DNA from: Candidatus Eisenbergiella merdipullorum
GTDB lineage: Bacteria > Bacillota > Clostridia > Lachnospirales > Lachnospiraceae
Assembly (NCBI GenBank): GCA_019118445.1
Contig: DWYY01000045.1
Coordinates: 1-64,000, forward strand
Length of the DNA: 64,000 nucleotides
Direction: 5' to 3'
Made by a program: the position numbers and the translations under genes
Notes under the pieces: generated by a model
Seen by the model: the letters and a program-made list of their open reading frames with translations, nothing else
What the model was told of the DNA's origin: nothing
The model's database searches: none
In this document: positions 14,741 to 30,652 of the stretch, one piece after another
Layout of the letters: every line of letters begins with the position of its first letter
How positions within the stretch are numbered: position 1 is the stretch's first letter

Positions 14741-15370
14741 CTATTCTTCAATGAGTTCCAGCTTGCTGACGGACACCTCGTAGGCGACTCTCTTTTCAAG
14801 CTGGTCCTCTCCGACCTTCTTCATATATTCGCGGCTCTGGATACGTCCCCATATCTCACAGCGGTCTCCCACGCTGAAACCTCCTGCGAACCTGGCGTTT
14901 CTGCCCCAGCAGATGCAGGGGATATAATCCGACTTTCCATACGGACGGTTTACCGCCAGAAGCACATCGGCGATCTCCCTTCCCAGCGGTGTTTTCCGGT
15001 AAACAGGCTCCTTGCAGATGTACCCATCCAGATAGATCTGATTGGTCTTGGAGCTTTCCTCCAGCTCATCGATGAACTCGATCTCCCTCACAAAAACGGA
15101 AAGGATGAGACGGTTTTTCTTTTCCTCATGACGGTTGTAGGAACGGAACTGGCCAGAAACGCACACATACGCGCCCTTATAGTCCTGTTCCACGTCGATG
15201 AGTCTCTCTGAGATCATCAGTGGGATGATGTCGCAGGACTCACTGAGCCTTGCTACTTCCACGTTCAGCATGTAGAAGCCTTCGCCGAAGATCTCATGGC
15301 TGAACGTAAAATCTCCGACCACCTTTCCCATGATGACTACCTGGTTGTTTTCAATTACCTTATCTGTCAT
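14741..15370 (-). CDS. Single-stranded DNA-binding-like protein with two OB folds
   Basis: Two consecutive SSB-like segments (VVIMGKVVGDF...VCVSGQF; IYLDGYICKEPVYRKTPLGREIADVLLAVNRPYGKSDYIPCICWGRNA). Confidence 0.75.
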   Translation of the reverse strand: MTDKVIENNQVVIMGKVVGDFTFSHEIFGEGFYMLNVEVARLSESCDIIPLMISERLIDVEQDYKGAYVCVSGQFRSYNRHEEKKNRLILSVFVREIEFIDELEESSKTNQIYLDGYICKEPVYRKTPLGREIADVLLAVNRPYGKSDYIPCICWGRNARFAGGFSVGDRCEIWGRIQSREYMKKVGEDQLEKRVAYEVSVSKLELIEE

Positions 15371-15665
15371 TTTCTGTTCTCCCTTCTTGGGCGCCGGAAT
15401 GCCGGGCCGCTTTTAAGAATTTTTTCCTGTATGTATTATCAGTTTATGGCCGTATTCTTTTTTTCAGAACAAACAAAGGTCGTCCGATTCCCGGTTTCTT
15501 CGACAAAATAGCGCGTTTTTTCTTCCTAGGTGTTGCAAGTTGCCTGCCGGAATGCTATACTTATTTAGTTTGAGCAGTTGTAAATCGGTAAAGAAATATT
15601 TTTTTTGGCGTCTGCGCATATACTGCCGCATGACGCCGGCTTTTCAGGAAGTGAGAGGAAATTCT

Positions 15666-17498
15666 ATGAAGCAGAAACGAGAAGATGTGAGAAACGTTGC
15701 GATCATCGCGCATGTTGACCACGGAAAGACCACGCTGGTGGACGAGCTCTTAAAGCAGACCGGTGTGTTCCGCGCCAATCAGGAGATGGTGGAGCGCGTC
15801 ATGGACTCCAACGCCATCGAGCGGGAGCGCGGCATCACCATTCTTTCCAAGAACACGGCGATCACCTATAAGGGCGTGAAGATCAACATCGTGGACACCC
15901 CCGGCCATGCGGATTTCGGCGGCGAGGTGGAGCGTGTGCTGAAGATGGTGAACGGCGTTATCCTGGTGGTAGATGCTTTTGAAGGTCCCATGCCGCAGAC
16001 CAAGTTCGTTCTGAGAAAAGCTCTGGAGCTGCAGCTTCCTGTCATCGTCTGCATCAACAAGATCGACCGTCCCGAGGCCCGTCCCAACGCGGTCGTAGAC
16101 GAGGTTCTTGAGCTGTTCATGGACCTGGATGCGAGCGACGAACAGCTTGACTGCCCCTTCGTCTTCGCTTCCGCCAAGAACGGCAGCGCCACACTGCAGC
16201 TTACCGTTAAAAATAAGGACATGAAACCCCTGCTTGATACCATCCTGGATTATATCCCCGCGCCGGAAGGCGACCCTGACGCCGGGACCCAGGTGCTCAT
16301 CAGCACCATCGATTATAATGAATATGTGGGCCGCATCGGCGTGGGAAAGGTGGACAACGGCACCATTTCAGAGGGTCAGGACGTGGTGATCGTCAACCAC
16401 CACGAACCGGACAAGCAGAAGCGCGTCCATATCAGCCGCCTCTACGAATTTGACGGGCTGAACAAAGTGGAGGTGAAGCAGGCCTCCATCGGTTCCATCG
16501 TGGCGATCTCCGGCATTTCGGATATCCATATCGGAGATACGCTCTGTTCCCCAGAAAACCCTGTCCCGATCCCGTTCCAGAAGATTTCCGAACCCACCAT
16601 CGCCATGGATTTCATCGTAAACGATTCCCCCTTTGCCGGACAGGAGGGCAAATATGTGACCAGCCGCCATCTCAGGGACCGGCTTTTCAGGGAGCTGAAC
16701 ACGGACGTATCCCTGCGCGTGGAGGAGACGGATTCCACCGATGCCTTCAAGGTATCCGGCCGCGGCGAGCTGCATCTGTCCGTCCTGATCGAAAACATGC
16801 GCCGGGAGGGCTATGAATTCGCCGTCAGCAAGGCGGAGGTCCTTTATAAAACGGATGAAAACGGCAAACGGCTGGAGCCCATGGAAACCGCCTACATCGA
16901 CGTACCCGAAGAATTTGCCGGGACCGTCATCGAAAAGCTGTCCCAGAGAAAAGGCGAGCTGACCAACATGAGCACCTCGAACGGCGGCTATACCCGTCTG
17001 GAGTTCAGCATCCCCTCCAGAGGCCTCATCGGCTACCGCGGGGACTTTCTGACGGATACCAGAGGAAATGGCATCATGAACACCGCCTTCGCGGGCTACG
17101 CCCCCTATAAGGGAGATATCCAATACCGCAAGCAAGGGTCTCTCATCGCCTATGAGACCGGCGAATCCGTTACCTACGGCCTGTTCAACGCCCAGGAGCG
17201 CGGCACCCTGTTCATCGGCCCCGGCGAACGTGTTTATGCGGGAATGGTCGTCGGCCAGAGCGGCAGGGGCGAGGACATCGAGGTAAACGTATGCAAGAAA
17301 AAACAGCTCACCAACACCCGTTCCTCCAGCGCGGACGAAGCGCTCCGTCTCACCCCGCCCCGGATCCTGAGCCTGGAGCAGGCGCTGGACTTCATCGAGA
17401 CGGACGAGCTGCTTGAGGTGACCCCCAAGTCCCTCAGGATCCGGAAAAAGATCCTGGATCCCACGAAGCGGAAGAGGGCGAACATGAACCGGAAATAG
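15666..17498 (+). CDS. typA: Translational GTPase TypA/BipA
   Basis: NVAIIAHVDHGKTTLVDELLKQ, ERERGITILSKN, VDTPGHADFGGEVERV, CINKIDRPEARP; full length to KRANMNRK. Confidence 0.96.
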   Translation: MKQKREDVRNVAIIAHVDHGKTTLVDELLKQTGVFRANQEMVERVMDSNAIERERGITILSKNTAITYKGVKINIVDTPGHADFGGEVERVLKMVNGVILVVDAFEGPMPQTKFVLRKALELQLPVIVCINKIDRPEARPNAVVDEVLELFMDLDASDEQLDCPFVFASAKNGSATLQLTVKNKDMKPLLDTILDYIPAPEGDPDAGTQVLISTIDYNEYVGRIGVGKVDNGTISEGQDVVIVNHHEPDKQKRVHISRLYEFDGLNKVEVKQASIGSIVAISGISDIHIGDTLCSPENPVPIPFQKISEPTIAMDFIVNDSPFAGQEGKYVTSRHLRDRLFRELNTDVSLRVEETDSTDAFKVSGRGELHLSVLIENMRREGYEFAVSKAEVLYKTDENGKRLEPMETAYIDVPEEFAGTVIEKLSQRKGELTNMSTSNGGYTRLEFSIPSRGLIGYRGDFLTDTRGNGIMNTAFAGYAPYKGDIQYRKQGSLIAYETGESVTYGLFNAQERGTLFIGPGERVYAGMVVGQSGRGEDIEVNVCKKKQLTNTRSSSADEALRLTPPRILSLEQALDFIETDELLEVTPKSLRIRKKILDPTKRKRANMNRK

Positions 17499-17537
17499 AG
17501 TGATCCTTTTAAATAAAGTAATCCTTTTCCACAGAAA

Positions 17538-17581
17538 ATGCCCTGAAGCGTTCATACAGGTCCGCTTCAGGGCATTTTTTT
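17538..17581. terminator. Bidirectional-looking terminator between typA and the AP2-like gene
   Basis: ATGCCCTGAAGCG...CGCTTCAGGGCAT TTTTTT. Confidence 0.8.
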
Positions 17582-18248
17582 AGTTTTGGTTTTCCTTTTT
17601 CTCAGGGGCTTTCTTCTCCGGGGAAGGAGCGGGCACATCTGGACTACTGATCACCTGATACGCGCCTCCCGGCTTTCTGATCACCTGAAAGATAAGGGGA
17701 TTCTTCTTTCCCCACTCCGGGTCCTTCGCCGTTCTTTCCTCCCATTTATGATACTTCTCCACAAAGGCGTCATGGATATCGCTTTCCGCCTCTCTGCGTA
17801 CTTTAACCGCCTCCTCCATGCTCCCGTAAGTGCCAAGATAATATCTTTCTCCCTTGAAACCGATGGTCACACGGTACCTGCCGTTTTTCATGCGGTATAC
17901 GCCGCGGAATCCGCTGGTGTTGTCCTTGCGGCTCTTCCTTTTTTCCAGCCATTCCACGCAGGTTCCATCCACGCGGTGGAGCTGTTCGGAGACACGTTTC
18001 TGGTTCTCTCTTTTCAGACAGCCGCAGCTCAAGTTGTTCCCGAATACCAGTCCGTCCTCCGTCGCTTCTGTCTCCCCTCCGCAGTCACAGCGGCAGTGCC
18101 AGTAGACGGAGCCTTTGTGATCCCTGCGTTCGGTGGGATATTCTGCGGTCAGACGGCCGAAGCGCCTTCCGGTGAGGTCGGTGACGGTGCGGCCGCCTCT
18201 GCCTTTTCTTTTTTTCCTGTCATTCTTTTCTGTGTCGTTCTTCTTCAT
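17580..18248 (-). CDS. AP2-domain DNA-binding-like protein with N-terminal cysteine motif
   Basis: TSGFRGVYRMKNGRYRVTIGFKGERYYLGTYGSMEEAVKVRREAE (AP2-like); LTGRRFGRLTAEYP...WHCRCDCGG...NNLSCGCLKRE. Confidence 0.75.
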   Translation of the reverse strand: MKKNDTEKNDRKKRKGRGGRTVTDLTGRRFGRLTAEYPTERRDHKGSVYWHCRCDCGGETEATEDGLVFGNNLSCGCLKRENQKRVSEQLHRVDGTCVEWLEKRKSRKDNTSGFRGVYRMKNGRYRVTIGFKGERYYLGTYGSMEEAVKVRREAESDIHDAFVEKYHKWEERTAKDPEWGKKNPLIFQVIRKPGGAYQVISSPDVPAPSPEKKAPEKKENQN

Positions 18249-18277
18249 CCGTCTGCATTTTCTCCTGTTTCATAAAA

Positions 18278-18314
18278 CCGCCGCAGACGCGGTCTCTCCC
18301 GTTTCCTGCGGCGG
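18278..18314 (-). terminator. Terminator at the end of the pilus operon
   Basis: Minus strand CCGCCGCA...TGCGGCGG followed by TTTTATG. Confidence 0.65.
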
Positions 18315-18330
18315 CTTTTCATGGTTTCCT

Positions 18331-19131
18331 TCAGGCTTTGTCAGCTTTATTATTTTTCTTTCCCAGGAAAGCGGAAATGATCAGCACAGCCGCTCCCAGC
18401 AGCGCTCCCGCAGCCCAGAGCATCACGTTCGACTCATCTCCCGTCTGCGGACCCGTTCCCGTCTGGGATGCGGGCGGAAGGACAACCTGAGCCGGCGGCG
18501 CAGGCACAGCAGGCGTCACCACAGTCTGAACCACGGTCGGGGTGGAGTCGCCGGAGCCGCCTCCGTTTCCTCCGTCGTCAGAAGGATTGGAAGGATTGGC
18601 GGGACGGGAGTAGTGGTTTTGGAAAAGGAACTGTTCCGCCTTCTCTGTACTGTCACTGCGATAGCCGAAGATCATTGCCTTCAGCCCGTCGTTTCCGTCA
18701 TTTACAATCCACACGCCGACATTATAAACTGTCGTATCATATGTAAAATTATTTCTGGGTTCTGCTTCCTGATGAATGGTATAATGGTACTCACCTGGAG
18801 CGTTGTAATAAATTCCCTGAAAATCAGCCGTTTCACCGGCTTTCACCGTGATTTCCTTTACCAGCTTTTCCGTTCCATCCTCATCTGTTACCATAACAGA
18901 GCCATCCGGCATTGGCATGCCTGCCTCTGCTGTCAGAATTACCCTGTATTCATTCCCTTCCGGAATTCCACTGCCGCTTTCCTTTACTGTTGCGCACAGC
19001 TCACCTTTTCCCAGAGTATAATTGTAATCCGCCGCCTGTGCTGTCACAGGCATAACCAATGTCACTCCAAGCAGCGTAAGGAGCAGCAGTTTCCGGATCT
19101 GCCCCAGCTTTTTTTTCATGCTTTTATGCAC
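18331..19131 (-). CDS. Spy0128/FctB-like minor pilin with sortase-signal-like C-terminus
   Basis: Signal peptide; GEYHYTIHQEAEP and FLFQNHY pilin-fold motifs; C-terminal GPQTGD, hydrophobic stretch and KKNNK tail. Confidence 0.75.
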   Translation of the reverse strand: MHKSMKKKLGQIRKLLLLTLLGVTLVMPVTAQAADYNYTLGKGELCATVKESGSGIPEGNEYRVILTAEAGMPMPDGSVMVTDEDGTEKLVKEITVKAGETADFQGIYYNAPGEYHYTIHQEAEPRNNFTYDTTVYNVGVWIVNDGNDGLKAMIFGYRSDSTEKAEQFLFQNHYSRPANPSNPSDDGGNGGGSGDSTPTVVQTVVTPAVPAPPAQVVLPPASQTGTGPQTGDESNVMLWAAGALLGAAVLIISAFLGKKNNKADKA

Positions 19132-19888
19132 CTCCTTCTTGTGCCGTTACCGGTTTCAGCCGCCCATATATCACGACACGGCCGTTCGTTTCCGCTTCGG
19201 CACAGGTTGACAGGCCGATGATCTGATCCTCCGGCTCCGCTCCGATCTCACGGTACTGGACTGCGTTTTCACGGATATATTCCAGAAGGCTTTCCACATT
19301 TCCTTCCTCCTGGGCCGTCGGATTGAACACCCTGCTGTCATAGGCATCGACTTTCAGACAGGCAAATAGCTCAATGCTCCATGTGCCGCCCGGCGCATAC
19401 AGCGTCCCAGTCGTATGCGCGTCAAAAAATGTTTTGTCTGTAAACTCCACAATATCCCCGAACATCCCGCCGTTTTCCATGTGATGGCCGTACAGCAGGA
19501 CATAACTGTCCGAAAAATCTGGACTGTTGGCGCTGTCCAGGAAAATGGAACCGGACAGGGCAAATTCACCATATACATCCTTATTGATGTATTCCATGTT
19601 CGTCTCACCCTGTACCACGGGATAATCGATATGAGTATCGTCTATGGTCACCCATCCCCGCACATCTTCGTTGAGGGCCTGCAACTCCGAAAGGGTCGGA
19701 TTATCCGTCTCCCCGGCTGAAGCAGGCTTGAACTGCAGAAGATCGTTCGAGACAAAAGCGCCCCGGTAAATCATAGCTGTATCCCAGAGGGAATAGCTGC
19801 CGTAAAGAAACATGATTACGATCAGAAGCACCACAATGCCGTTCAGTATTCTGTTTCCGATTCTGGCGCATCTGGCTGCCGTTTCCAT
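19124..19888 (-). CDS. Class B sortase
   Basis: N-terminal TM; DYPVVQGETNMEYI, LLYGHHM catalytic His, GLSTCAEAETNGRVVIYGRL catalytic Cys/Arg. Confidence 0.9.
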   Translation of the reverse strand: METAARCARIGNRILNGIVVLLIVIMFLYGSYSLWDTAMIYRGAFVSNDLLQFKPASAGETDNPTLSELQALNEDVRGWVTIDDTHIDYPVVQGETNMEYINKDVYGEFALSGSIFLDSANSPDFSDSYVLLYGHHMENGGMFGDIVEFTDKTFFDAHTTGTLYAPGGTWSIELFACLKVDAYDSRVFNPTAQEEGNVESLLEYIRENAVQYREIGAEPEDQIIGLSTCAEAETNGRVVIYGRLKPVTAQEGGA

Positions 19889-20014
19889 GTATGGGTGTCC
19901 TTTCTTCCTTGCCGCTGTAAATTTGCGCTTATGCTGCCCGACCCTTTGTGCAGCCGGACAGCAACGGCTGATAATTCGTTTATGGATTCAGGGATATAAT
20001 TTCCGTTTTACCCT

Positions 20015-21100
20015 TTAAAAGTTATTTTTTCTTCTACGCAGGAACAAGAATGCAAGACCACCTGCCAGAACTACCATCAGGATGTAGGGGGCAATGTTCA
20101 TAACAATACCTGTTTCAGGAACGCCATTTGTATTTGTATTTATGAAATTCACAACAGGTACCGTACTGGCTTTGGCATCTTCCAATTTCTTCTTTTCTTC
20201 GCCATTCACTGTCGTAGTATAATTGGAATCTTCTGTAGTTTCAGTAACTGTATACGTATCCTCTGCCGAAAGACCATAGACCACAGCGCTATCTCCATCG
20301 GCAAGTACAAATCCCTGAGATATTCCATCAGTAAGAGTATACGAAGTTGTATGCGTTCCACCCTTTTTATTGGTCACCACCATATAGTAATTTTCCGTAG
20401 CGTTTTCATCATTGTCTGAAACAGCTATTGTAAACTCAAATTCCCTGTTCAAGTCACCCATCTTACCTGTAACCTCTTTTGTTATCCTAAGTGACTCTTT
20501 TCCATCCTCAGATCCTTCGGTAATATACTTATTGGTAAATCCATCGCTCTTTGCGCTGCCATTCCACATCTCATATCCGGCAATCTGAAGATCTCCAGTA
20601 GGATTCCCATCCTCGTCCATAACGTTTTCCACATATACGTACAGATCTCTTGATACTCCGTCATAGGTCATTCCATCATAAGTTCCCGAGGCCTCTGCAA
20701 CTATATAATGATAAATACCTGCCTGATCAAATTTATCCGCATTAAAACTGAATCCCTCATTAGAAGTCATTACCACCTTGTTTTTTGCTAATATGTCCTC
20801 ATCAGTTGAAGGTTCAAAATCAATGGTAACTGTACCGCCATTTAAAATAGCATCGCTGATTCCTTTTTCTCCCTTTGCATCCTTATCCCCCTTTGTAACT
20901 GTAAAGGTAAAGGACGTATCTGGAGTAGGAACATTTATTCCCTTTTCAAGCGTTTTCTTAACAAGGACATTGTTTCCTTTTCCTGCACCAATATCTCCAT
21001 CTTCTGCAAATGCCGTCATTCCAAACATGGAGACCATCATTGTTCCTGCCATCAGTGCTGCCGCTATACGGCGGAAATATTTGTTGTGTTTCAGACTCAT
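20015..21100 (-). CDS. Spy0128/FctA-like major pilin
   Basis: Start taken at MSLKHNKYFRRI; signal peptide; YHYIVAEASG, FTNKY, VTGKMGDLNREFEFTI; C-terminal VPETG, TM and RRRKNNF. Confidence 0.88.
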   Translation of the reverse strand: MSLKHNKYFRRIAAALMAGTMMVSMFGMTAFAEDGDIGAGKGNNVLVKKTLEKGINVPTPDTSFTFTVTKGDKDAKGEKGISDAILNGGTVTIDFEPSTDEDILAKNKVVMTSNEGFSFNADKFDQAGIYHYIVAEASGTYDGMTYDGVSRDLYVYVENVMDEDGNPTGDLQIAGYEMWNGSAKSDGFTNKYITEGSEDGKESLRITKEVTGKMGDLNREFEFTIAVSDNDENATENYYMVVTNKKGGTHTTSYTLTDGISQGFVLADGDSAVVYGLSAEDTYTVTETTEDSNYTTTVNGEEKKKLEDAKASTVPVVNFINTNTNGVPETGIVMNIAPYILMVVLAGGLAFLFLRRRKNNF

Positions 21101-21253
21101 AACATTCTTCCTCTCTTTTTCCTGATTTTTTGTTTCTATGTTGGCGGCTTTTGCCGCCTCTATCACAAAGCAAGCCTTCAGGAGTTGCATGAAACGACTT
21201 TTCCCCCGCTGCTCTGTAATATACATGTTAATTGTTCCGGCTTATTTGCCTGT

Positions 21254-21850
21254 TCACAGTTCCGAACGTCGGATGACAGTGATCACCTTTCCTTTAATCT
21301 CCTTTTTCCCCACTGGACCAAAATACCGGCTGTCCCTTGCTCCTTCTCGGTAATCGCAAAGAACGAATACCTGTCCTTCTTCCAGCGTCAACGGATAAAT
21401 CACTTTGCTTTCATATCGGGGAGTACTGTAATAGATATCGCTTTCCGCCACATAACTGCCATTGATCATCAGTCTGGCATCTTCCGTTACCTCAACCGTA
21501 TCTCCGCCCACTGCTACGACACGCCCTGTGTATTGTCTGCCTTCTTTTTCAAATATAATGACATCATCTGCCCGGAGCGTATCTTCCAGCCGATAAAACA
21601 GCATCAGATCTCCTGCACTGATACGGGGTGACATATCGTCATTTCTCATAACGGCAAGACCAAATACCATGCCAAACAGGAGCCACAGCAAAACCACCAG
21701 AAACACAAGTCTCGTAAAAAAGGAGCTGACATCTTCCTGATTTGCGATGCTGCGCCGCCTTATCAGAATCACTTCTTCCGGCGTCTGGATGGCGGGCGGG
21801 CCTTTTCGGCCACCCTGCCTGTGTCCTTTTTTCTTACTCTTCTGTTTCAT
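21254..21850 (-). CDS. Signal peptidase I-like protein (SipA-like, predicted protease-dead)
   Basis: S26 family pattern NDDMSPRISAGDLMLF ... YTGRVVAVGGDTVEV ... YFGPVGKKEIKGKV; start taken at MKQKSKKKGHRQ. Confidence 0.82.
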   Translation of the reverse strand: MKQKSKKKGHRQGGRKGPPAIQTPEEVILIRRRSIANQEDVSSFFTRLVFLVVLLWLLFGMVFGLAVMRNDDMSPRISAGDLMLFYRLEDTLRADDVIIFEKEGRQYTGRVVAVGGDTVEVTEDARLMINGSYVAESDIYYSTPRYESKVIYPLTLEEGQVFVLCDYREGARDSRYFGPVGKKEIKGKVITVIRRSEL

Positions 21851-22085
21851 CACCGGCCTCCCCCGCTTCATCGAGCTGGCTTTCCAGCCGGTCAATCATG
21901 TCATCACGCTCATCGAGCAGTGCCTGAAAATATGTTTCCTGTGTCTCAAAAGCCGCTCTGTAATCTGCCTGCAGCAGTTCAATCTGTTTCCAGACATCGG
22001 CTTCATCCACACCGCCGATCAGTTTTTTTCGGAAATGCAGCTTTGTTAGCTGTCCCGCGATTTCTTCCATGCTCTTTGCTGCCAT
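21834..22085 (-). CDS. 83-aa hypothetical coiled-coil protein in the pilus operon
   Basis: ORF with FRKKLIGGVDEADVWKQIELLQADYRAAF; overlaps the next gene's start by 17 bp. Confidence 0.65.
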   Translation of the reverse strand: MAAKSMEEIAGQLTKLHFRKKLIGGVDEADVWKQIELLQADYRAAFETQETYFQALLDERDDMIDRLESQLDEAGEAGDETEE

Positions 22086-22139
22086 TGCTCATCCTTTTCT
22101 TTTATCTGAATTTTCAGCCATATGGTCAATCTTTTCAGA

Positions 22140-25100
22140 TCAGCGGAAACGGTTTCTGCGGGATGCTCTGTTTCTTACCATCAATGTAAATCCAAATGTC
22201 GCAGCAACAGAGAACAACATCATCATGAAGGTTGCTCCGGTATTGTCTGTGATGCCTGTATCAGGTACCTCATCCGTTTTGTCATTGCGGAAGGTAACGG
22301 TTATATCCTCCTCGCCTACTGTTATGTCGAAAGAATTTCCCTGCTTTTCACCTTCTCCATTGTCAACATAGGTGGTATATCCGTCTGCAGATTCTTCTGT
22401 AATGACCAGATACTGGCCTGCTTCCAGATTATCAATTTCATAACTTTCATCATCCGACAATGTAAAATGAACTGCTTCTCCTGTCGGGCTTCCATCTTTC
22501 CGGTCATAAATCTGGTAGCTGAAGCTGAAGACCTGATCCAGTTCACCCATATTTCCGGTTACCTGCTTTGTTACGGTAACCTTTACAGCCTTAACCCACT
22601 GCGCATAGAGAACATTATTTTTCGGATTTATCGTATCCACCTGGATGATATCTCTAGGCTGGAGAAGTTTTCCCTTACCGTCAGCATCTGTAGTCCAGCC
22701 AGCGAATGTATATCCTTCTCTATGGATATTTTGTGGTTTGATCTCATATTGCTCGTTTGGAGTTGCGATATCTTCCGTTATTGCCTCATTTCCATCTTCG
22801 TCAGTTCCACCGTTAAAATTATAGGTAAGTGACGTTTCGCGAACAGGAGCCCATTTTGCTGTCAGGGTCACATTTTCTGCAGGCATGGTATACCAGTCGC
22901 CCGGATAATACTCGTTTCCGTCTTCATCCACCCAGCAGACAAAACCATAGTATTCCGCTGGTGGAGTCCAGCTTTCAGGAACAGTCAAGAGCTTCGCGCT
23001 GGCACCTTCTGCATACCTTTCCAAATCAGATACTGATTCACCATTTCCATCTCCTGGAATATAAGTCAATGTGTATTGTGCATCACTGATCCATTGAGCG
23101 AAAAGTGTCATATTTTCCACAACCTGGGTGCTGAAATTGAAAGGTGTTCCATCCGATCTTCTCCATCCTGCAAAAGTATATCCCTCACGTTTCGGATCCT
23201 CAGGTTTCTGAACAGTTCCATTTTTCTCTATTACCTGAGCATCATATTGTGCAGAATCCTCCTGTTCTCCGAGGCTCGCTCCGTTCAGATCAAAAGTAAC
23301 TGTATAGGATACCGGCACCCATTTGGCATATAAAGGGAAATTTCCGGCCGGCATAGTTTTTCCGGCAAATTCATAGGCATCTCCCTCTAATAGCTCATTG
23401 GTATACCATCCTGCGAAGGTGTAATCTTCTTTTCCTGCAGGAGCAGTCGGTGTATATCCAGCCTTACTAATATCAGCTTCATAGAGGAATGTCTTTTCTT
23501 CGTCCACCTCTCCTTCGTTAATAAACTGAATGGTATATTCATTTCTGTCATAGTAGAATTTCCATCCATATGTATTCCGCATGCCCTGAAAGGCTTTTGC
23601 CTGTGAACCTACATCTGCACTGCTATCCCAATTAACAGTAAATCCTTTGATACTATAGTAGTCATTTTCAGTTGTAGTCCACCCTGTATTGTCACTCTTA
23701 AATTCATCCGTATGATCTAGATTGTATCTTCCATCCAATCCTTCCAGATAAAATTCTGTCCGGATTGTATATTTACCCTGTTGATCTACATAGTAAAACT
23801 CATCTCCGTTTATGGGCATTTCTCCTATGCCAGACTGATATATTCTATTCCCCCCATTGGATTCACCTGTCCACCATTGGCTGGAATAGCTGGTACTCAA
23901 ATCAGTTCTTCGGCTGGGCCATAGATTGCTGATATCCTGTCCATATTTTGCAGTAATTGCCAGCTCTGTGATCTCATCGCGCCCTCCTGCTTCTACATAA
24001 ATATAGGAACCATTTCCCTGACCAACATATTCATAACGTCCCCAAATGATGCCTACATAGTTATAATCACCATTTCCCAAACCGACATACTGATATCCGG
24101 CTTCTGCATATTCTTGATAGAATTTTACTTCATAGATGTTACGATCATAATAAACATGTACAACTGTTGTTCCATCATTTTTTATCCGTTGTTGCACAAT
24201 CTGTCTACCTTCATCAGTACTTAATGAAAAGCCTGCATATTTGTCACTTTCAGCAGTGACATTGGTCATGGTTCCCACTGTTCCCTGTCTGATTTCACTA
24301 TCCGCTAGGGAATATCCTTCATCATCCGCATTTTCCTGCCAATAGATAATCCGGTAATTTACTTCTCCCGGAATCCACTTAGCATACAGAGTTATACTTT
24401 CCTGCAGCGTACTTCCAAATTCAAATCTATTCTCACAGGAGCTGTCCGTAAACCAACCGGAAAATTCATATCCTGTATATGTCGGTGCGTCAGGTTCTAC
24501 TGTTTTTTCTCCGGTCCGTACATAAACCGGATCTACAACCGAACCTCCCTGAGAGTCAAAAGTCATCCAATGTACATCAACAATTACCGGATATAAAACA
24601 AGATCACTTCCATCCTGCGGAATTGTTATTTCTTCATCCGGCTTTTCTGCATTTCGTTCCACAGACCAGCCTAAAAAGGCCTTGTTATCTTCTGTCGCAA
24701 GCTGTATCTTTTCCGTTTCAACCACTGCGCCAATCTGATCATATCTCTGTGTGGCAAGAATTTTACTTGTCTCATCATTTCCTGCCTTATAAAAAACGTA
24801 ATATACCTTTTCCGTATATCTGGCATACAGATTGGTCGTCCTATTCCCTTCTAACGCTCCTTCTTCTTGGCCGAAGTTCGTAAACTCAGAATCATCTTCA
24901 CCAAACCATCCTTCAAAGATATACCCGTTTCTTTCCGGTGTTTCAGGTACATTCAAAGTCTCCCCGGCAGAAAGGATCTGCTTATTCCATTCTTCCTGTT
25001 CCCCATCTCCATTTGCGTCTGCATAGAACACATATGTATGCGTAAAGTGCTCATCCTCGTCGCCTGGCGTAGTTACCACATAAACGGAAAAACTGTTCGC

Positions 25101-26012
25101 ATCAAATACCACCGCGTTATTTTCGGTCTGTACGGAAGATACCTCTTCCGGTGATGCGCTTTCGTTTTCCATGTGATAAACAGATACTTCTTCGCTTTGC
25201 TGCAGAGCTTCGCGCACTGCTGTGTTCTCAATCTTTACCTGAATCGCGCCATCCCGCGGCTGATATACCTCACCTTCCGGATCAAAGATCGTAATATCAT
25301 ATGCTGCCAGCACGACTTCATCATCAATCTGGACGTTCACCGGATAGGCTTTTACTTTTGCCCCCTCCGGCATAACTCCTTTCAACGTAATCGTAGTCCC
25401 TGAGGCATTTCTTGAATAAGAAGAATTCTCAAAGACCTCTGCAGCCAGAGTCTGTTTCTTCAGAACCATCTCTGCTTTGGTTTCTCCCAAAGTAGTCTCT
25501 TCCGTCAAAGTCTCCGTCTCCATTTCGGTAGTCTCCTCCGTCAGAGTTTCGGTCTCCTCCTCCGTCGTTTCTTCCGTTGCATCCTCAGTTGTTTCCTCGC
25601 TCTCAGAAGCAGTCTCGGTCGTACCTTCTGTCGTGCTTTCGGTCTCCGTACTGCTTTCTGTCGGTGCAGAACTGCTTTCCAGCACAGAACTTTCCGCAGT
25701 ACTGCTCTCTGTGGATGAAGGCTCCTGCTTGTCCGTCTCACCAGATCCACCGTTCTCTCCGCTGCCGCCGTTTCCGGTCTGCCCTTCCGGCTCGGCAGGC
25801 TGTTCTTCGCTGACCGGTTCACTTGGCGCTTCATTGTTCTGGTCCGAAACTGCCGATCCCGCGCTCTGCGTTGCAGGCTGAGACTGTGTTTCCACAGCAG
25901 TCTCCTGCGCAGTACTCTCCGCCAGCACGGTCAGCCTTCCGGTTCCTGCTGCCGACATCACCAGAGCAAACGCCAATAGGAACGCCATGATTTTTCTTAC
26001 TCTTCTCCGCAT
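22140..26012 (-). CDS. Large sortase-anchored surface adhesin with InlB_B (Listeria-Bacteroides) repeats
   Basis: Signal peptide; Ser/Thr/Glu-rich stalk; multiple Y.FAGW...LYAKW repeats; C-terminal VTGNMGELDQVFSFSY pilin-like domain and VPDTG anchor. Confidence 0.9.
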   Translation of the reverse strand: MRRRVRKIMAFLLAFALVMSAAGTGRLTVLAESTAQETAVETQSQPATQSAGSAVSDQNNEAPSEPVSEEQPAEPEGQTGNGGSGENGGSGETDKQEPSSTESSTAESSVLESSSAPTESSTETESTTEGTTETASESEETTEDATEETTEEETETLTEETTEMETETLTEETTLGETKAEMVLKKQTLAAEVFENSSYSRNASGTTITLKGVMPEGAKVKAYPVNVQIDDEVVLAAYDITIFDPEGEVYQPRDGAIQVKIENTAVREALQQSEEVSVYHMENESASPEEVSSVQTENNAVVFDANSFSVYVVTTPGDEDEHFTHTYVFYADANGDGEQEEWNKQILSAGETLNVPETPERNGYIFEGWFGEDDSEFTNFGQEEGALEGNRTTNLYARYTEKVYYVFYKAGNDETSKILATQRYDQIGAVVETEKIQLATEDNKAFLGWSVERNAEKPDEEITIPQDGSDLVLYPVIVDVHWMTFDSQGGSVVDPVYVRTGEKTVEPDAPTYTGYEFSGWFTDSSCENRFEFGSTLQESITLYAKWIPGEVNYRIIYWQENADDEGYSLADSEIRQGTVGTMTNVTAESDKYAGFSLSTDEGRQIVQQRIKNDGTTVVHVYYDRNIYEVKFYQEYAEAGYQYVGLGNGDYNYVGIIWGRYEYVGQGNGSYIYVEAGGRDEITELAITAKYGQDISNLWPSRRTDLSTSYSSQWWTGESNGGNRIYQSGIGEMPINGDEFYYVDQQGKYTIRTEFYLEGLDGRYNLDHTDEFKSDNTGWTTTENDYYSIKGFTVNWDSSADVGSQAKAFQGMRNTYGWKFYYDRNEYTIQFINEGEVDEEKTFLYEADISKAGYTPTAPAGKEDYTFAGWYTNELLEGDAYEFAGKTMPAGNFPLYAKWVPVSYTVTFDLNGASLGEQEDSAQYDAQVIEKNGTVQKPEDPKREGYTFAGWRRSDGTPFNFSTQVVENMTLFAQWISDAQYTLTYIPGDGNGESVSDLERYAEGASAKLLTVPESWTPPAEYYGFVCWVDEDGNEYYPGDWYTMPAENVTLTAKWAPVRETSLTYNFNGGTDEDGNEAITEDIATPNEQYEIKPQNIHREGYTFAGWTTDADGKGKLLQPRDIIQVDTINPKNNVLYAQWVKAVKVTVTKQVTGNMGELDQVFSFSYQIYDRKDGSPTGEAVHFTLSDDESYEIDNLEAGQYLVITEESADGYTTYVDNGEGEKQGNSFDITVGEEDITVTFRNDKTDEVPDTGITDNTGATFMMMLFSVAATFGFTLMVRNRASRRNRFR

Positions 26013-26076
26013 TTTCCCTACTCCATTCCTCTCTGTTTACGTTTCCTTTTCCGTCCGTTCCCTGCACAGGCCGTCT

Positions 26077-26100
26077 ACCTCATAATGTTTATTATGCGGT
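26077..26100. repeat. Left inverted repeat of putative invertible promoter (IRL)
   Basis: ACCTCATAATGTTTATTATGCGGT; 23/24 identical to the reverse complement of 26442-26465. Confidence 0.95.
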
Positions 26101-26187
26101 CCGGCCGCTCCCTGAAAGCTATCAGACAGAGAGGCTGCAGGCACTTTTCTTTTCGTCAGACGCTCCTATGGAAGCATTCTGACGTAA

Positions 26188-26269
26188 AACCGAAAATTCT
26201 GCGCATAATAAAAAAGACCACGGGCGGCCATTCCCGATGGTCTTGTTGTCATGCGCAGAATTTTCGGTT
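26188..26269. repeat. 19-bp perfect inverted repeat inside the invertible segment
   Basis: AACCGAAAATTCTGCGCAT (26188-26206) and ATGCGCAGAATTTTCGGTT (26251-26269). Confidence 0.95.
26205..26244 (-). terminator. Intrinsic terminator reading toward the pilus operon in current orientation
   Basis: Minus strand AAGACCATCGGGAATGGCCGCCCGTGGTCTTTTTTATTA. Confidence 0.8.
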
Positions 26270-26379
26270 GTTTTCCATCGCTTCCCTTTTCAGAATACTT
26301 TTTTCTGCTTTTTGAGCTGTTTTTTCATTTTCCCGTATAATTTCTGCGGATCTGGAGCCATTTTTGGCCCGGAGAGAGA

Positions 26380-26408
26380 TTGACATTTGCCTGCAGTGCG
26401 AGTATAAT
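26380..26408 (+). promoter_or_regulatory. Perfect consensus sigma-A promoter
   Basis: TTGACA (26380-26385), 17-bp spacer, TATAAT (26403-26408). Confidence 0.9.
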
Positions 26409-26441
26409 TTTTTCAAGTTCAGCGATATGTACTTTCCGGTT

Positions 26442-26465
26442 ACCGCATAATAAACATTATGCGGT
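26442..26465. repeat. Right inverted repeat of putative invertible promoter (IRR)
   Basis: ACCGCATAATAAACATTATGCGGT; itself a perfect 10-bp palindrome around AAAC. Confidence 0.95.
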
Positions 26466-27317
26466 CTTTTTTTCATCCAGAAGAAGGCCGAGCCTCTCAA
26501 TCTGCCGTGCCTGCTCCTTTCCGCTCGACATCGTATAGATCCTCGTCGTGTTGATGCTCGAATGTCCCAGCAGATCGGCCAGGTGCGTGATATCTTTCTC
26601 CATCTCGTAGTAGGTGCACGCAAACAGATGCCTCAGGTTATGCGGGAAGATCTTCCCCTTCTCCACTCCCGCTTCCGCGCTGAGCTTCTTCATCTCATGC
26701 AGGATGTTGCTCCGGTCCATGGGGCGGCCGCTTCTGGTCACAAAGATGCTTCCTGTTCTGATCCCCTTCTGCACTGCGTAGCCAAGAAGGCTCTCACACA
26801 GCGCTGGCGGCAGCAACACCGTCCGTGTCTTTCCCTTCAGGCGCACCACCGCACTCCCGCGTTTTGCCGCCTCCACCGTGATGAACGGCAGCTCACTGAT
26901 CCGGATTCCTGTAGCGCAGAGGGTCTGCATCAGATAGCTCAGCCTCTTTTTTCCCAATCTTTCGGCCGCATCCACAAGGTGAAAATATTCTTCCCTGGAA
27001 AGCTCCTTCTCCTGACTGCGGAATGCCTCCCTCTGCACCCGCACCAGCTTTACCAGGCAGTCGTACCAGCCCTGTTCTTTAAAAAAACGGTTCAGGGCGG
27101 CAAGCATGGAATTCACGCTGCTGACTGCATAGCGCTCCAGAAGCCTTTCCTTATAGCCGATCACGATCGTCTTGTTCACTGCGCCCGACTTTCCCAGCCA
27201 GTGAAGAAAGGCGCGCAGGTCACGCCCGTATTTGTCTATCGTTCTTTTGCTTTTTTCTTCCTCCGCCAGCTTCTGCCGGAACTGCTCCAGCTGTGTCTCA
27301 TTCATGAAATGGTCCAT
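26457..27317 (-). CDS. Tyrosine recombinase, putative invertase of the adjacent promoter
   Basis: R-K-HxxR-H-Y set: ATGIRISEL, RLKGKTRT, HNLRHLF, LLGHSSINTTRIYT; start taken at MDHFMNETQ after GGAAGGAAGGAGAG; stop lies inside IRR. Confidence 0.9.
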   Translation of the reverse strand: MDHFMNETQLEQFRQKLAEEEKSKRTIDKYGRDLRAFLHWLGKSGAVNKTIVIGYKERLLERYAVSSVNSMLAALNRFFKEQGWYDCLVKLVRVQREAFRSQEKELSREEYFHLVDAAERLGKKRLSYLMQTLCATGIRISELPFITVEAAKRGSAVVRLKGKTRTVLLPPALCESLLGYAVQKGIRTGSIFVTRSGRPMDRSNILHEMKKLSAEAGVEKGKIFPHNLRHLFACTYYEMEKDITHLADLLGHSSINTTRIYTMSSGKEQARQIERLGLLLDEKKTA

Positions 27318-27503
27318 TCTTCCCTCTCTCCTTCCTTCCGGGTTATTGTTATTGGAATGCCCGGCTCCGCATTTTTTATACATGATCATAAAAAGTATAC
27401 AACTTTTTCCTTTCCGGACATATCAGGCATGTGAAAAAATTCATTGCCCTTTCCGCACACATGGGCTATCATGAAAGAGAAAACTTATGAAAGGGGATTT
27501 TTT

Positions 27504-28802
27504 ATGAAACTGAATTCCAGACGGACCATTTTGGTCGGACTTGCCTTTCTGTCCATCAGCGCCTTCTGGCAGCTCTATGACAGTCTGATCCCGCTGATCC
27601 TGAAAAACACCTTCCAGGTCAGCGATACCATTTCCGGCGGGATCATGGCCATTGACAACGTGCTCGCCGTCTTCATGCTTCCTGTATTCGGCAGCCTTTC
27701 CGACCGGGTGCATACCAGGATCGGACGGCGGATGCCTTTCATCCTGTGTGGGACAGCAGCAGCCGTCATTGCCATGCTTTTTCTGCCTTTCGCAGACAAC
27801 ATCGGGTCGCTCGCCTTGTTCATAACTGCGCTGCTCGTGACGCTCGTCTCCATGGGAAGCTACCGTTCCCCGGCGGTGTCACTGATGCCTGACGTGACGC
27901 CGAAACCGCTCCGTTCCAAAGCCAACGCCATCATCAACCTGATGGGAGCGGTAGGCGGCGTGGTCTCCCTGCTCCTGATCTCTGCCCTCGTTCCCAAAGA
28001 AGGAAAGCCGGATTATTTTCCCATCTTCCTCATCGTGGCGGCGGTCATGGTGGGATCCGTCCTTCTTTTATTATGGAAGATCCGGGAAAATCCCCTGCGC
28101 GCGGAGAGGGAAAAGATTGATGCCGCTCTGCAGGAGGAAGGGATAGAAGAAAAGGAAGAAGAAAAAACGGACGGCCCCAAAACCGCCCTCGATCCTGATG
28201 TGCGAAAGAGCCTGATCCTCATCCTGATCTCCGTATCCTGCTGGTTCATGGGCTATAATGCGGTGACCACCGCATTTTCCCGGTACGCGCAGATTCACTG
28301 GGGCATCCAGGGCGGAGGCTTCGCCAACTGCCTTCTGATCGCCACTGCGGCCGCCATCCTCTCCTATATCCCGGTGGGCTCCATCGCCTCCAGGGTGGGG
28401 AGAAAAAAGACGATCCTGGGCGGCGTGATCCTTCTGGCCTCCATGTTCGCGCTGGGCGCGACGGTAAAGGAATATCACGTATGGATCAACGGCCTTTTCG
28501 CCCTGGTCGGCGTGGCATGGGCTGCCATCAACGTCAATTCCTATCCCATGGTGGTTGAAATGAGCAAGGGCAGCGATATCGGGAAATTCACCGGCTTCTA
28601 CTACACCTTTTCCATGGCGGCGCAGATCGTCACCCCGATCCTGTCCGGCTTCCTTCTGGAGCATGTGGGGTATTTCATCCTGTTCCCCTATGCCGCGCTT
28701 TTCGTCATCATCGCCTTCTTCACCATGCTGTTCGTCCGGCATGGAGACAGTAAGCCCCTACCGAAAAAGAGCAGGCTGGAAGCCTTCGACGTGGAGGACT
28801 GA
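27504..28802 (+). CDS. MFS transporter (SLC45/GPH-like)
   Basis: About 12 TM helices; DNVLAVFMLPVFGSLSDRVHTRIGRRMPFI motif. Confidence 0.85.
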   Translation: MKLNSRRTILVGLAFLSISAFWQLYDSLIPLILKNTFQVSDTISGGIMAIDNVLAVFMLPVFGSLSDRVHTRIGRRMPFILCGTAAAVIAMLFLPFADNIGSLALFITALLVTLVSMGSYRSPAVSLMPDVTPKPLRSKANAIINLMGAVGGVVSLLLISALVPKEGKPDYFPIFLIVAAVMVGSVLLLLWKIRENPLRAEREKIDAALQEEGIEEKEEEKTDGPKTALDPDVRKSLILILISVSCWFMGYNAVTTAFSRYAQIHWGIQGGGFANCLLIATAAAILSYIPVGSIASRVGRKKTILGGVILLASMFALGATVKEYHVWINGLFALVGVAWAAINVNSYPMVVEMSKGSDIGKFTGFYYTFSMAAQIVTPILSGFLLEHVGYFILFPYAALFVIIAFFTMLFVRHGDSKPLPKKSRLEAFDVED

Positions 28803-28871
28803 TCGTTCCGAAAAAAAGCCGCCTGCAGACAATAGAACGGAGCTTTTCAACGCTCCGAAATGGAGATTATC

Positions 28872-29105
28872 ATGAAAGAAAAGAAAGACAAAAAAATATC
28901 CCCAAAGCAGGTCGCCGCGATGGTCTGCATCGTACTTCTTGTGGGGATGTATGTCGCCACCCTGATCGTGGCGCTCCTGGATTTTCCCGGATCGGACAGG
29001 CTCTTTCAAGCATGCCTGGTCGCCACCATCGGCCTGCCGATCCTTCTGTGGATCTATATCTGGCTTTACCAGAAGGTGAAAGAAAAAAAGGACGGACAGC
29101 AGTGA
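28872..29105 (+). CDS. Small two-TM hypothetical membrane protein
   Basis: MKEKKDKKISPKQVAAMVCIVLLVGMYVATLIVALLDFPG; ORF after an SD-like sequence. Confidence 0.6.
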   Translation: MKEKKDKKISPKQVAAMVCIVLLVGMYVATLIVALLDFPGSDRLFQACLVATIGLPILLWIYIWLYQKVKEKKDGQQ

Positions 29106-29145
29106 AGTTCCCTCCTGCCGTCCGCCTTCTGTCTGTTTTCCGCTT

Positions 29146-29748
29146 CTACTCCACCCCCAGCGCCCGCAGTTCCTCCTTCGCCTGTTCCACGTTCCGGAAC
29201 AGGATGGTATGGATCCCAAACTGCGCCGCGGCGTCCAGGTTCTTCTGAATATCGTCAAGAAAGACACATTCCTCCGGCTTCAGGCCGTATCTGTCGATCA
29301 GCAGCCGGTAGATCGCCGGGTCGGGTTTGATCACTCCGTCCCGGTAGGACAGGATGCCGCCATCCACATATTCCAGGAAATCAAGCGCGTCCGGATTGTC
29401 CTTCGCCACCTTATCGGAGAAGTTGGACAGTACCAGCACCTGATAGCCCTTTGCCTTCAGCTCCCTGATCCAGGGGATCGCGTAGTCCGCCTTCGTCAGG
29501 ATGCCGTGCAGGTTTGCAAAAATCTGCCGGATCTCCTTTTCCACGGACGGATCGTTGCGGATGAAGCCGGCGAGCATCTCCTCATCGGTGAGCTGCCCTC
29601 TGTCAAATTCATTCCAGAAGGGGCTGTCCATGGTGGCTTTTCCCACTTTTTCTTCCGTTTGGGCGTCAAATCCAAAGCTTTTCAGAAAATTTTTCCAGCC
29701 GAACACCGTCAGCACATTTCCAATATCAAAAATAATCGTATGAATCAT
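29146..29748 (-). CDS. HAD-family hydrolase (HAD-IA)
   Basis: IIFDIGNVLTVF, VLSNFSDKV, KPDPAIYRLLIDRYGLKPEECVFLDDIQKNLDAA. Confidence 0.88.
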   Translation of the reverse strand: MIHTIIFDIGNVLTVFGWKNFLKSFGFDAQTEEKVGKATMDSPFWNEFDRGQLTDEEMLAGFIRNDPSVEKEIRQIFANLHGILTKADYAIPWIRELKAKGYQVLVLSNFSDKVAKDNPDALDFLEYVDGGILSYRDGVIKPDPAIYRLLIDRYGLKPEECVFLDDIQKNLDAAAQFGIHTILFRNVEQAKEELRALGVE

Positions 29749-30652
29749 TTTCGTTCCTTTCCGGCAGATCCTTTTTCCGGATCAGCTCCAGCATCCTTTC
29801 CGCCGCTGCGGAGGGCTGCTCTCCGTCCGCAGTCACCACGCAGAAATGGCGTTTGGGGATCATCTTGTTGAAACGCAGCTCAAACAGTGTCCCTTCCTCC
29901 AGCTCTTTTCCGGCAAAATCCCGCACCACGTTCCCGACGCCCAGGGAGCGGAGCGCGAACTGGACGATCATGTCGCTGGTGGCGAGCTCAAATTCCGGCG
30001 TCACCTGTACCCTGTTTTCTTCCAGGAAGCGGTCCATGCAGCTCCGGGTGCTGGTGTTTTTCTCCAGCAGGATGAGCGGCAGCTTCTCCAGTTCCTTCAG
30101 GTCCAGCATTCTGTTTTTATACTGGATGAAACGCCTTCCCGCCACAAAAATATCCTCGATCTGCCGCACTTCTTCCGCCTGCAGCCCTTCACCGTCAAAG
30201 GGCGTGCTCACCACGCCGAAGTCGATCTTTCCGCTTCTGAGGGAGGCGAGGGTTTCCGGTGTGGGCGCGTTGCTCACCACGATGCGGATCCGGGGGCAAA
30301 GCTCATGGAAGCGTTCCAGATAGGGCAGAAGGAAAAAGCGGAGCGTCATGTCAGACGCTCCGATGTGGATCTCTCCCAGTTCCAGATTCATCATCTGCTT
30401 CAGTTTTCTCTCTCCCAGCTCGATCTGTTCGTAGCCCTTTTCCACATAGGCATATAAAAGCTCCCCTTCCTTCGTGAGCTTCACGCCCCTGGCGCTGCGC
30501 ACGAACAGCTTCGCGCCCACAGCCGTCTCCAGAAGCCGGATGGACTGGCTCACCGCAGGCTGGCTGATGGAAAGCTCCTTTGCCGCAAGGGTGAGGGAGC
30601 CGCAGCGCGCCACGTGGCAGAACACCTTGTAATATTCCAGATTCTGAACCAT
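29726..30652 (-). CDS. LysR-family transcriptional regulator
   Basis: N-terminal HTH LEYYKVFCHVARCGSLTLAAKELSISQPAVSQSIRLLE. Confidence 0.92.
   Translation of the reverse strand: MVQNLEYYKVFCHVARCGSLTLAAKELSISQPAVSQSIRLLETAVGAKLFVRSARGVKLTKEGELLYAYVEKGYEQIELGERKLKQMMNLELGEIHIGASDMTLRFFLLPYLERFHELCPRIRIVVSNAPTPETLASLRSGKIDFGVVSTPFDGEGLQAEEVRQIEDIFVAGRRFIQYKNRMLDLKELEKLPLILLEKNTSTRSCMDRFLEENRVQVTPEFELATSDMIVQFALRSLGVGNVVRDFAGKELEEGTLFELRFNKMIPKRHFCVVTADGEQPSAAAERMLELIRKKDLPERNENDSYDYF

Follow-up and report, generated by a model that had tools for sequence, protein, structure and literature searches.

A SipA-type, class B sortase pilus operon in Candidatus Eisenbergiella merdipullorum with its main promoter on a putative invertible DNA segment

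Introduction

Pili that depend on SipA and a class B sortase are known mainly from streptococci. In group A Streptococcus (GAS), the FCT-3 and FCT-4 islands, and also FCT-2, carry the genes in the order Cpa-SipA-FctA-SrtC2-FctB (PMC7900414, PMC4049620). The GAS pilin sortase reads the sorting signals of tip and shaft while SrtA reads that of the base, and the reason why SipA pili require an inactive signal peptidase has yet to be explained (PMC7900414). SipA also belongs to the pilus islet 2 (PI-2) cluster (PMC4049620), which is found in Streptococcus pneumoniae and S. oralis (PitA, SipA, PitB, SrtG). Here we describe a pilus operon of this kind in a 64,000-nucleotide stretch of DNA from Candidatus Eisenbergiella merdipullorum (contig DWYY01000045.1 of assembly GCA_019118445.1, positions 1–64,000; hereafter the window), preceded by a 389-bp segment which is bounded by inverted repeats and adjoins a tyrosine recombinase gene.

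Short segments upstream of a surface structure are inverted by tyrosine recombinases in the cwpV and flagellar switches of Clostridioides difficile (RecV) and in fimS of Escherichia coli; RecV acts on several sites, and fimS controls chaperone-usher fimbriae. Invertible promoters in gut bacteria were reportedly surveyed in 2019, and the arrangement that marks such an inverton, a promoter between inverted repeats beside a recombinase gene, is present in the window. Both orientations were reported among the reads for the SZO08560/SZO08550 locus of S. zooepidemicus, along with 44-fold directional transcription (PMC2654543). Based on comparative sequence analysis, we propose that the window carries a class B sortase, SipA-dependent covalent pilus operon whose single main promoter lies in the putatively invertible 389-bp segment (probability about 0.86).

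Results

The minus strand carries six genes between 26012 and 18331. Their products are, in transcription order, an adhesin, a coiled-coil protein, a signal-peptidase-like protein, a major pilin, a sortase and a minor pilin. This content, order and placement, as well as an 8-bp overlap between the sortase and minor pilin genes (19124–19131), had been described in an initial annotation and were confirmed in the sequence, with domain calls in agreement. The proposed FCT-3/4-like order is likewise present, namely tip-sipA-fctA-srtC-fctB with a class B sortase. Pfam domains include FctA/Spy0128-like PF12892 in both pilins and DUF7601 in the major pilin and the adhesin; Peptidase_S26 was also called. 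When profiles were searched against solved structures, the SipA-like protein, both pilins and the sortase were all nearest to GAS or pneumococcal PI-2 proteins (E-values from 1e-18 to 1e-64).

The SipA homologue (21895–21254, minus strand) has a signal-peptidase fold, and its best match is GAS SipA (4n31, 1.4e-38), ahead of true signal peptidases. Asp and Gly occupy the places of the catalytic Ser and Lys, respectively. The identical replacement has been described in GAS SipA (PMC4049620). An active signal peptidase was ruled out because both catalytic residues are replaced.

The major pilin (21100–20015, minus strand) is of the FctA/Spy0128 type and carries a VPETG sorting signal. Although its listed open reading frame (ORF) begins at 21226, the start is probably Met43 at 21100, which is preceded by AGAGGAAG and would be a plausible signal-peptide start; residues are counted from this Met below. 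The FctA profile matches GAS T-antigens and Spy0128 (2.8e-64 to 1.3e-30) and also PitB, and the top Foldseek match of the AlphaFold model in the PDB is Spy0128 (3b2m, 4.2e-19). The earlier description of the pilin as Spy0128-like was upheld by both profile and fold. TM-scores of the whole protein against GAS pilins are moderate (0.43–0.61) because two hinged domains are compared together with the signal peptide and membrane helix. All 32 homologues share the C-domain triad K208/E287/N321, and most of them retain the N-domain triad K49, E136 and N190; the major pilin is therefore predicted to contain two intramolecular isopeptide domains, with Lys/Glu/Asn conserved in each. The putative Lys-Asn bonds would link K49 with N190 and K208 with N321.

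The sortase (19888–19124, minus strand) scores 200.9 bits against TIGR03064 (cut-off 153.75), and the catalytic residues H135/H136, C229 and R237 are invariant. Its top structure-profile matches are 4y4q (5e-51) and GAS Spy0129 (3psq, 2.4e-50), in agreement with the class B assignment made initially. The minor, basal pilin (19131–18331, minus strand) carries a GPQTGD sorting signal and matches FctB (3klq/8k6t) both by sequence profile and by fold, FctB being first in the AlphaFold/Foldseek comparison. It has Gln at the place of the isopeptide Glu, the same as GAS FctB, so an isopeptide bond is not supported here, and the expectation of isopeptide domains in the pilins holds for the major pilin alone. 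The FctB in PDB entry 5ttd carries an engineered bond.

Taken together, the profiles, residue hallmarks and predicted folds support homology of the operon to the pilus class formed by GAS FCT-2/3/4 and pneumococcal PI-2. Where the initial annotation had left the choice between homologous and convergent, the former stands; convergence is unlikely and was rejected on the profile and Foldseek matches to pilus proteins.

The 389-bp segment starts at the 3′ end of the tyrosine recombinase gene (27389–26457, minus strand), whose 310-aa product (Phage_integrase, PF00589, 1.4e-24) is the proposed inverter of the adjacent switch. It is bounded by an operon-side repeat (26077–26100) and a recombinase-side repeat (26442–26465), which match in inverted orientation at 23/24 bases. 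Each 24-bp repeat is itself near-palindromic around a 4-bp asymmetric centre (AAAC/GTTT). The recombinase-side copy reads ACCGCATAAT-AAAC-ATTATGCGGT with T7 outside it and is predicted to act as an intrinsic terminator of the OFF-state transcript as well; the operon-side copy has no outside T-run. Between them, at 26380–26408 on the plus strand, lies a perfect sigma-70 promoter (TTGACA-17-TATAAT), the only one in the window, which points away from the operon, i.e., OFF as assembled. A terminator-like hairpin with T6 (26242–26214, minus strand) faces the operon in this state. Of 2000 simulated sequences of 800 bp with matched dinucleotide composition, 26 contained a perfect inverted repeat of even 12 bp and none contained a perfect promoter. 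A search of the host genome for further copies of the repeat found this pair alone.

The initial annotation had placed DNA inversion here instead of an obvious adjacent RofA/Nra-type regulator. The repeats and the promoter are in the sequence, from which we infer inversion itself; the neighbours of the operon are the recombinase, a major facilitator superfamily (MFS) transporter, an HNH/AP2-like protein and a TypA-like GTPase, with neither RofA/Nra nor MsmR regulators among the adjacent genes.

Very probably, judging from this arrangement, the neighbouring recombinase flips the segment and turns the pilus on or off. Within each repeat it would bind both palindromic arms, with strand exchange in the 4-bp asymmetric centre. 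In the OFF state, the promoter would fire toward the recombinase gene and be stopped at once by the hairpin and T7 of the recombinase-side repeat, and the terminator within the segment would block read-through toward the pilus genes. In the ON state, transcription from the flipped promoter would cross a leader of ~114 nt ahead of the adhesin ATG and continue through adhesin-coil-sipA-pilin-sortase-minor pilin. Adhesin and major pilin may then be joined by the class B sortase via their common xPxTG signals, with SipA as a non-enzymatic assembly factor; the fibre would end in the minor pilin, which has a distinct PQTGD signal and would be anchored by a housekeeping sortase. Two further sortase candidates are present in the host genome, one above the Pfam cut-off.

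To examine the distribution of this system, species genomes were scanned with the SipA profile, which gave 80 loci. The order adhesin-(coil)-sipA-fctA-srtB-fctB recurs in many of them, in dozens of gut Clostridia genomes from Lachnospiraceae, Oscillospiraceae and others. At ~20 loci, adhesin and major pilin mostly have xPTG[IVL] sorting signals and the minor pilin mostly has P[QK]TGD, a split that mirrors tip/shaft versus base in GAS.

An upstream gene could be identified at 73 pilus loci, of which 8 have a recombinase of this family and 65 do not. Repeats directly follow the recombinase stop in 8/8 of the former; among the latter, 5/65 have any repeat pair and 0/65 one of this type. In other genomes, 12 of 14 recombinases of this family above 300 bits have a repeat pair starting within ~25 bases of the stop, and the other two lie at contig ends with nothing following, whereas more distant recombinases (<165 bits) have none. 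The exact repeat motif was found in 10/299 family genomes and its reversed control in 0/299. A T-run lies outside the recombinase-side repeat in 9/11 switches and outside the operon-side repeat in 0/11. The promoter points toward the operon in Frisingicoccus caecimuris (L062), i.e., assembled ON, and away from it (OFF) in the window, G004 C36, G004 C33, G008 and L075. Cultured relatives that share this layout are F. caecimuris DSM 28559 and Lachnoclostridium An169 and An196.

On the sortase tree (41 loci), the pairing of recombinase and pilus needs 7 changes versus 9.1 in shuffles (28/500 as low). The pairing is thus only weakly clustered, so that several gains or losses are probable, and a single origin was rejected. 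Eight recombinases, mostly pilus-linked, form one supported group which includes two at contig ends (G000 C161 and G004 C285). Other targets of family members include flagellar fliF operons, a GGDEF protein, a capsule-type protein, an ABC exporter and a VWA surface protein.

Several further observations concern this recombinase family. In two loci of the same genus (L054:7042–8226 of G012, and L031 of G001), a family recombinase with inverted repeats lies upstream of a flagellar operon, identified by FliF in Pfam and, in L054, a FliE-like ORF before it; the flagellum is likely phase-variable there, echoing C. difficile. The G041 genome has ~20 recombinase matches, many within the family, and a single bacterium may thus carry numerous invertible promoters. 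A second recombinase in the genome of the window (L046:1–1173; G000:C161), 81% identical, is accompanied by a promoter -10 element and one repeat before the contig end and probably represents a second switch with its target outside the assembly. Two more family recombinase copies that could act in trans are found in the genome of L043. Two Oscillospiraceae pilus operons (L072:5058–5319 and L074:4528–4841) have a family recombinase and repeats of quite different sequence.

The region 14742–30572 of the window was compared with that of a sister species (G008; L044). The flanks on the typA and MFS sides are 84–87% identical, the recombinases are 83% identical in protein, and promoter, repeat and recombinase align. 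From the HNH gene to the switch, one stretch of ~268 bp within the sortase gene alone aligns as DNA, and protein identity is 43% for the sortase, 37% for SipA and 34% for the major pilin. The G008 sortase clusters with those of G003 and Blautia massiliensis in the tree, apart from that of the window. The simplest reading of these alignments would be that the pilus cassette of G008 was replaced under a retained switch. Tentatively, and at somewhat less than even odds, recombinase and switch may form a fixed regulatory dock between typA/HNH and the MFS gene, beneath which diverged pilus cassettes are exchanged while on/off control is retained, as GAS swaps FCT cassettes, with the recombinase-side repeat doubling as a terminator that silences the OFF promoter.

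Some observations weigh against a working, recombinase-switched pilus. Promoter orientation in L061, L064, L131, L072 and L074 is unclear or comes from weak promoter matches, and the difference in orientation is between species only (L062 ON, the others OFF). The terminator-like hairpin has another position in the L062 segment, and blocking of read-through is therefore not a general feature. In the sister species G004 C36 (L043:3929–4901), the recombinase is split into two frames, which would leave the switch there frozen or dependent on action in trans. In addition, K184, the candidate lysine for inter-subunit linkage, is present in ~20/32 homologues of the major pilin, and the host genome is a metagenome assembly which is 78% complete.

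The broken recombinase of the sister species, and the fact that nearly all assembled copies are OFF, would fit a real FCT-type pilus with a frozen switch, in which the repeats are relics and expression comes from another promoter, for which the intergenic gaps could offer room, or from another regulator. We consider this unlikely. The catalytic residues of the recombinase are intact (the columns of R163, K185/K187, H250, R253, H276 and Y285 are invariant across 7 relatives), its repeats still match at 23/24 after long divergence, and the perfect promoter has been kept even though the middle of the segment cannot be aligned between species. Moreover, one assembly is ON, and no better promoter faces the operon, the best minus-strand matches in the region reaching 9/12.

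Much less probable is that no pilus is made and that the class B sortase displays singly anchored surface proteins, like those of haem uptake. Many class B sortases do anchor iron-acquisition proteins (PMC7900414), and the pilus polymer here is a prediction from the genes. However, no NEAT or haem domains were found in domain searches, the two kinds of sorting signal are as in GAS, and FctA, FctB, SipA and a pilin-type sortase occur together, each nearest to pilus proteins. Least credible is an ordinary integrase remnant beside chance repeats or an unrelated hairpin/terminator pair: the recombinase-side repeat does resemble a terminator, but the repeats track the recombinase family across flagella, capsule and pili targets, the motif is specific against its reversed control, and no phage or conjugative genes adjoin the recombinase.

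The tip adhesin (26012–22140, minus strand; 1290 aa) contains a signal peptide, a Ser/Thr/Glu-rich stretch, an N-terminal domain, six Listeria-Bacteroides (internalin B) repeats, a DUF7601 isopeptide-type domain and a VPDTG sorting signal. Resemblance to pilus proteins is confined to the C-terminal DUF7601 domain, and Pfam, NCBIfam and PDB sequence searches revealed no thioester domain. Thus, the suggested FCT-like tip adhesin holds for this domain, and the remainder of the protein is not Cpa-like. The following gene (22085–21834, minus strand) encodes the 83-aa coiled-coil protein, which is conserved in ~26 related operons and has a weak, putative DivIVA-like motif at its N-terminus: 13/26 members match PF05103 at E < 0.05 (best 6e-4), and hhalign gave an E-value of 0.005 with a probability of 7%, compared with 0.09 for the reversed control.

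The gap between sipA and the major pilin gene (21101–21253, 153 nt) contains a strong hairpin (-38.8 kcal/mol), and gaps of similar size are found in relatives; it is perhaps an mRNA processing or stability element which raises pilin output. A likely operon terminator, consisting of a CCGCCGCAG/CTGCGGCGG hairpin and TTTT, lies 3′ of the minor pilin gene (18314–18270, minus strand). The HNH/AP2-like gene (17580–18248) is directly downstream and co-directional; its homologues adjoin pilus operons in L043, L044, L061 and L130, and it is possibly a linked mobile or regulatory gene.

Discussion

A switch of this kind would mean that piliated and bald cells of one commensal coexist. Such mixtures would give cultures a non-piliated appearance and would matter for colonisation and for exposure to the immune system. 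One recombinase family apparently flips pilus, flagellar, capsule and signalling promoters within one bacterial family, which suggests a general route of surface variation for these commensals. In addition, the dozens of operons in commensal gut Clostridia provide a comparative test set for the question of the inactive signal peptidase. No description of this operon set was found in the literature searched, nor was a phase-variable class B sortase pilus in Clostridia (subscription papers were outside the search).

Among known systems, the GAS FCT islands share with the window the order tip-SipA-major pilin-class B sortase-minor pilin, the Asp/Gly dead SipA, the two-domain isopeptide major pilin, and VP-TG-type signals on tip and shaft with another on the base. 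In contrast, the window tip has internalin-type repeats, no thioester domain was found in it, an 83-aa coil gene is added, RofA/Nra or MsmR is absent alongside, and the promoter lies on a putative invertible segment with its own recombinase. PI-2 is similar in that PitB is among the best pilin matches, whereas its tip, PitA, is a VWA protein; we know of no DNA switch in PI-2.

With regard to the switch, in S. zooepidemicus, too, a recombinase adjoins an inverted-repeat promoter, downstream of which a surface protein containing Listeria-Bacteroides repeats is encoded; however, this is a single LPXTG protein without a pilus operon, and the repeats are 10 bp long and of other sequence in a segment of ~115 bp (PMC2654543). 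Sortase-dependent pili of the gut commensal Bifidobacterium breve are phase-variable as well, but by replication slippage and not by inversion (PMC9187656). The RecV-dependent cwpV and flagellar switches and fimS are further cases of tyrosine-recombinase phase variation, likened here by description and not by switch sequence. Outside Streptococcus, the closest parallel is found in the many operons spread across gut Clostridia, a minority of which have a DNA switch. The parts of the system are thus of known kinds; what appears new is their combination, its breadth in gut Clostridia, the predicted role of the repeat as a terminator, and the possible exchange of cassettes under one switch.
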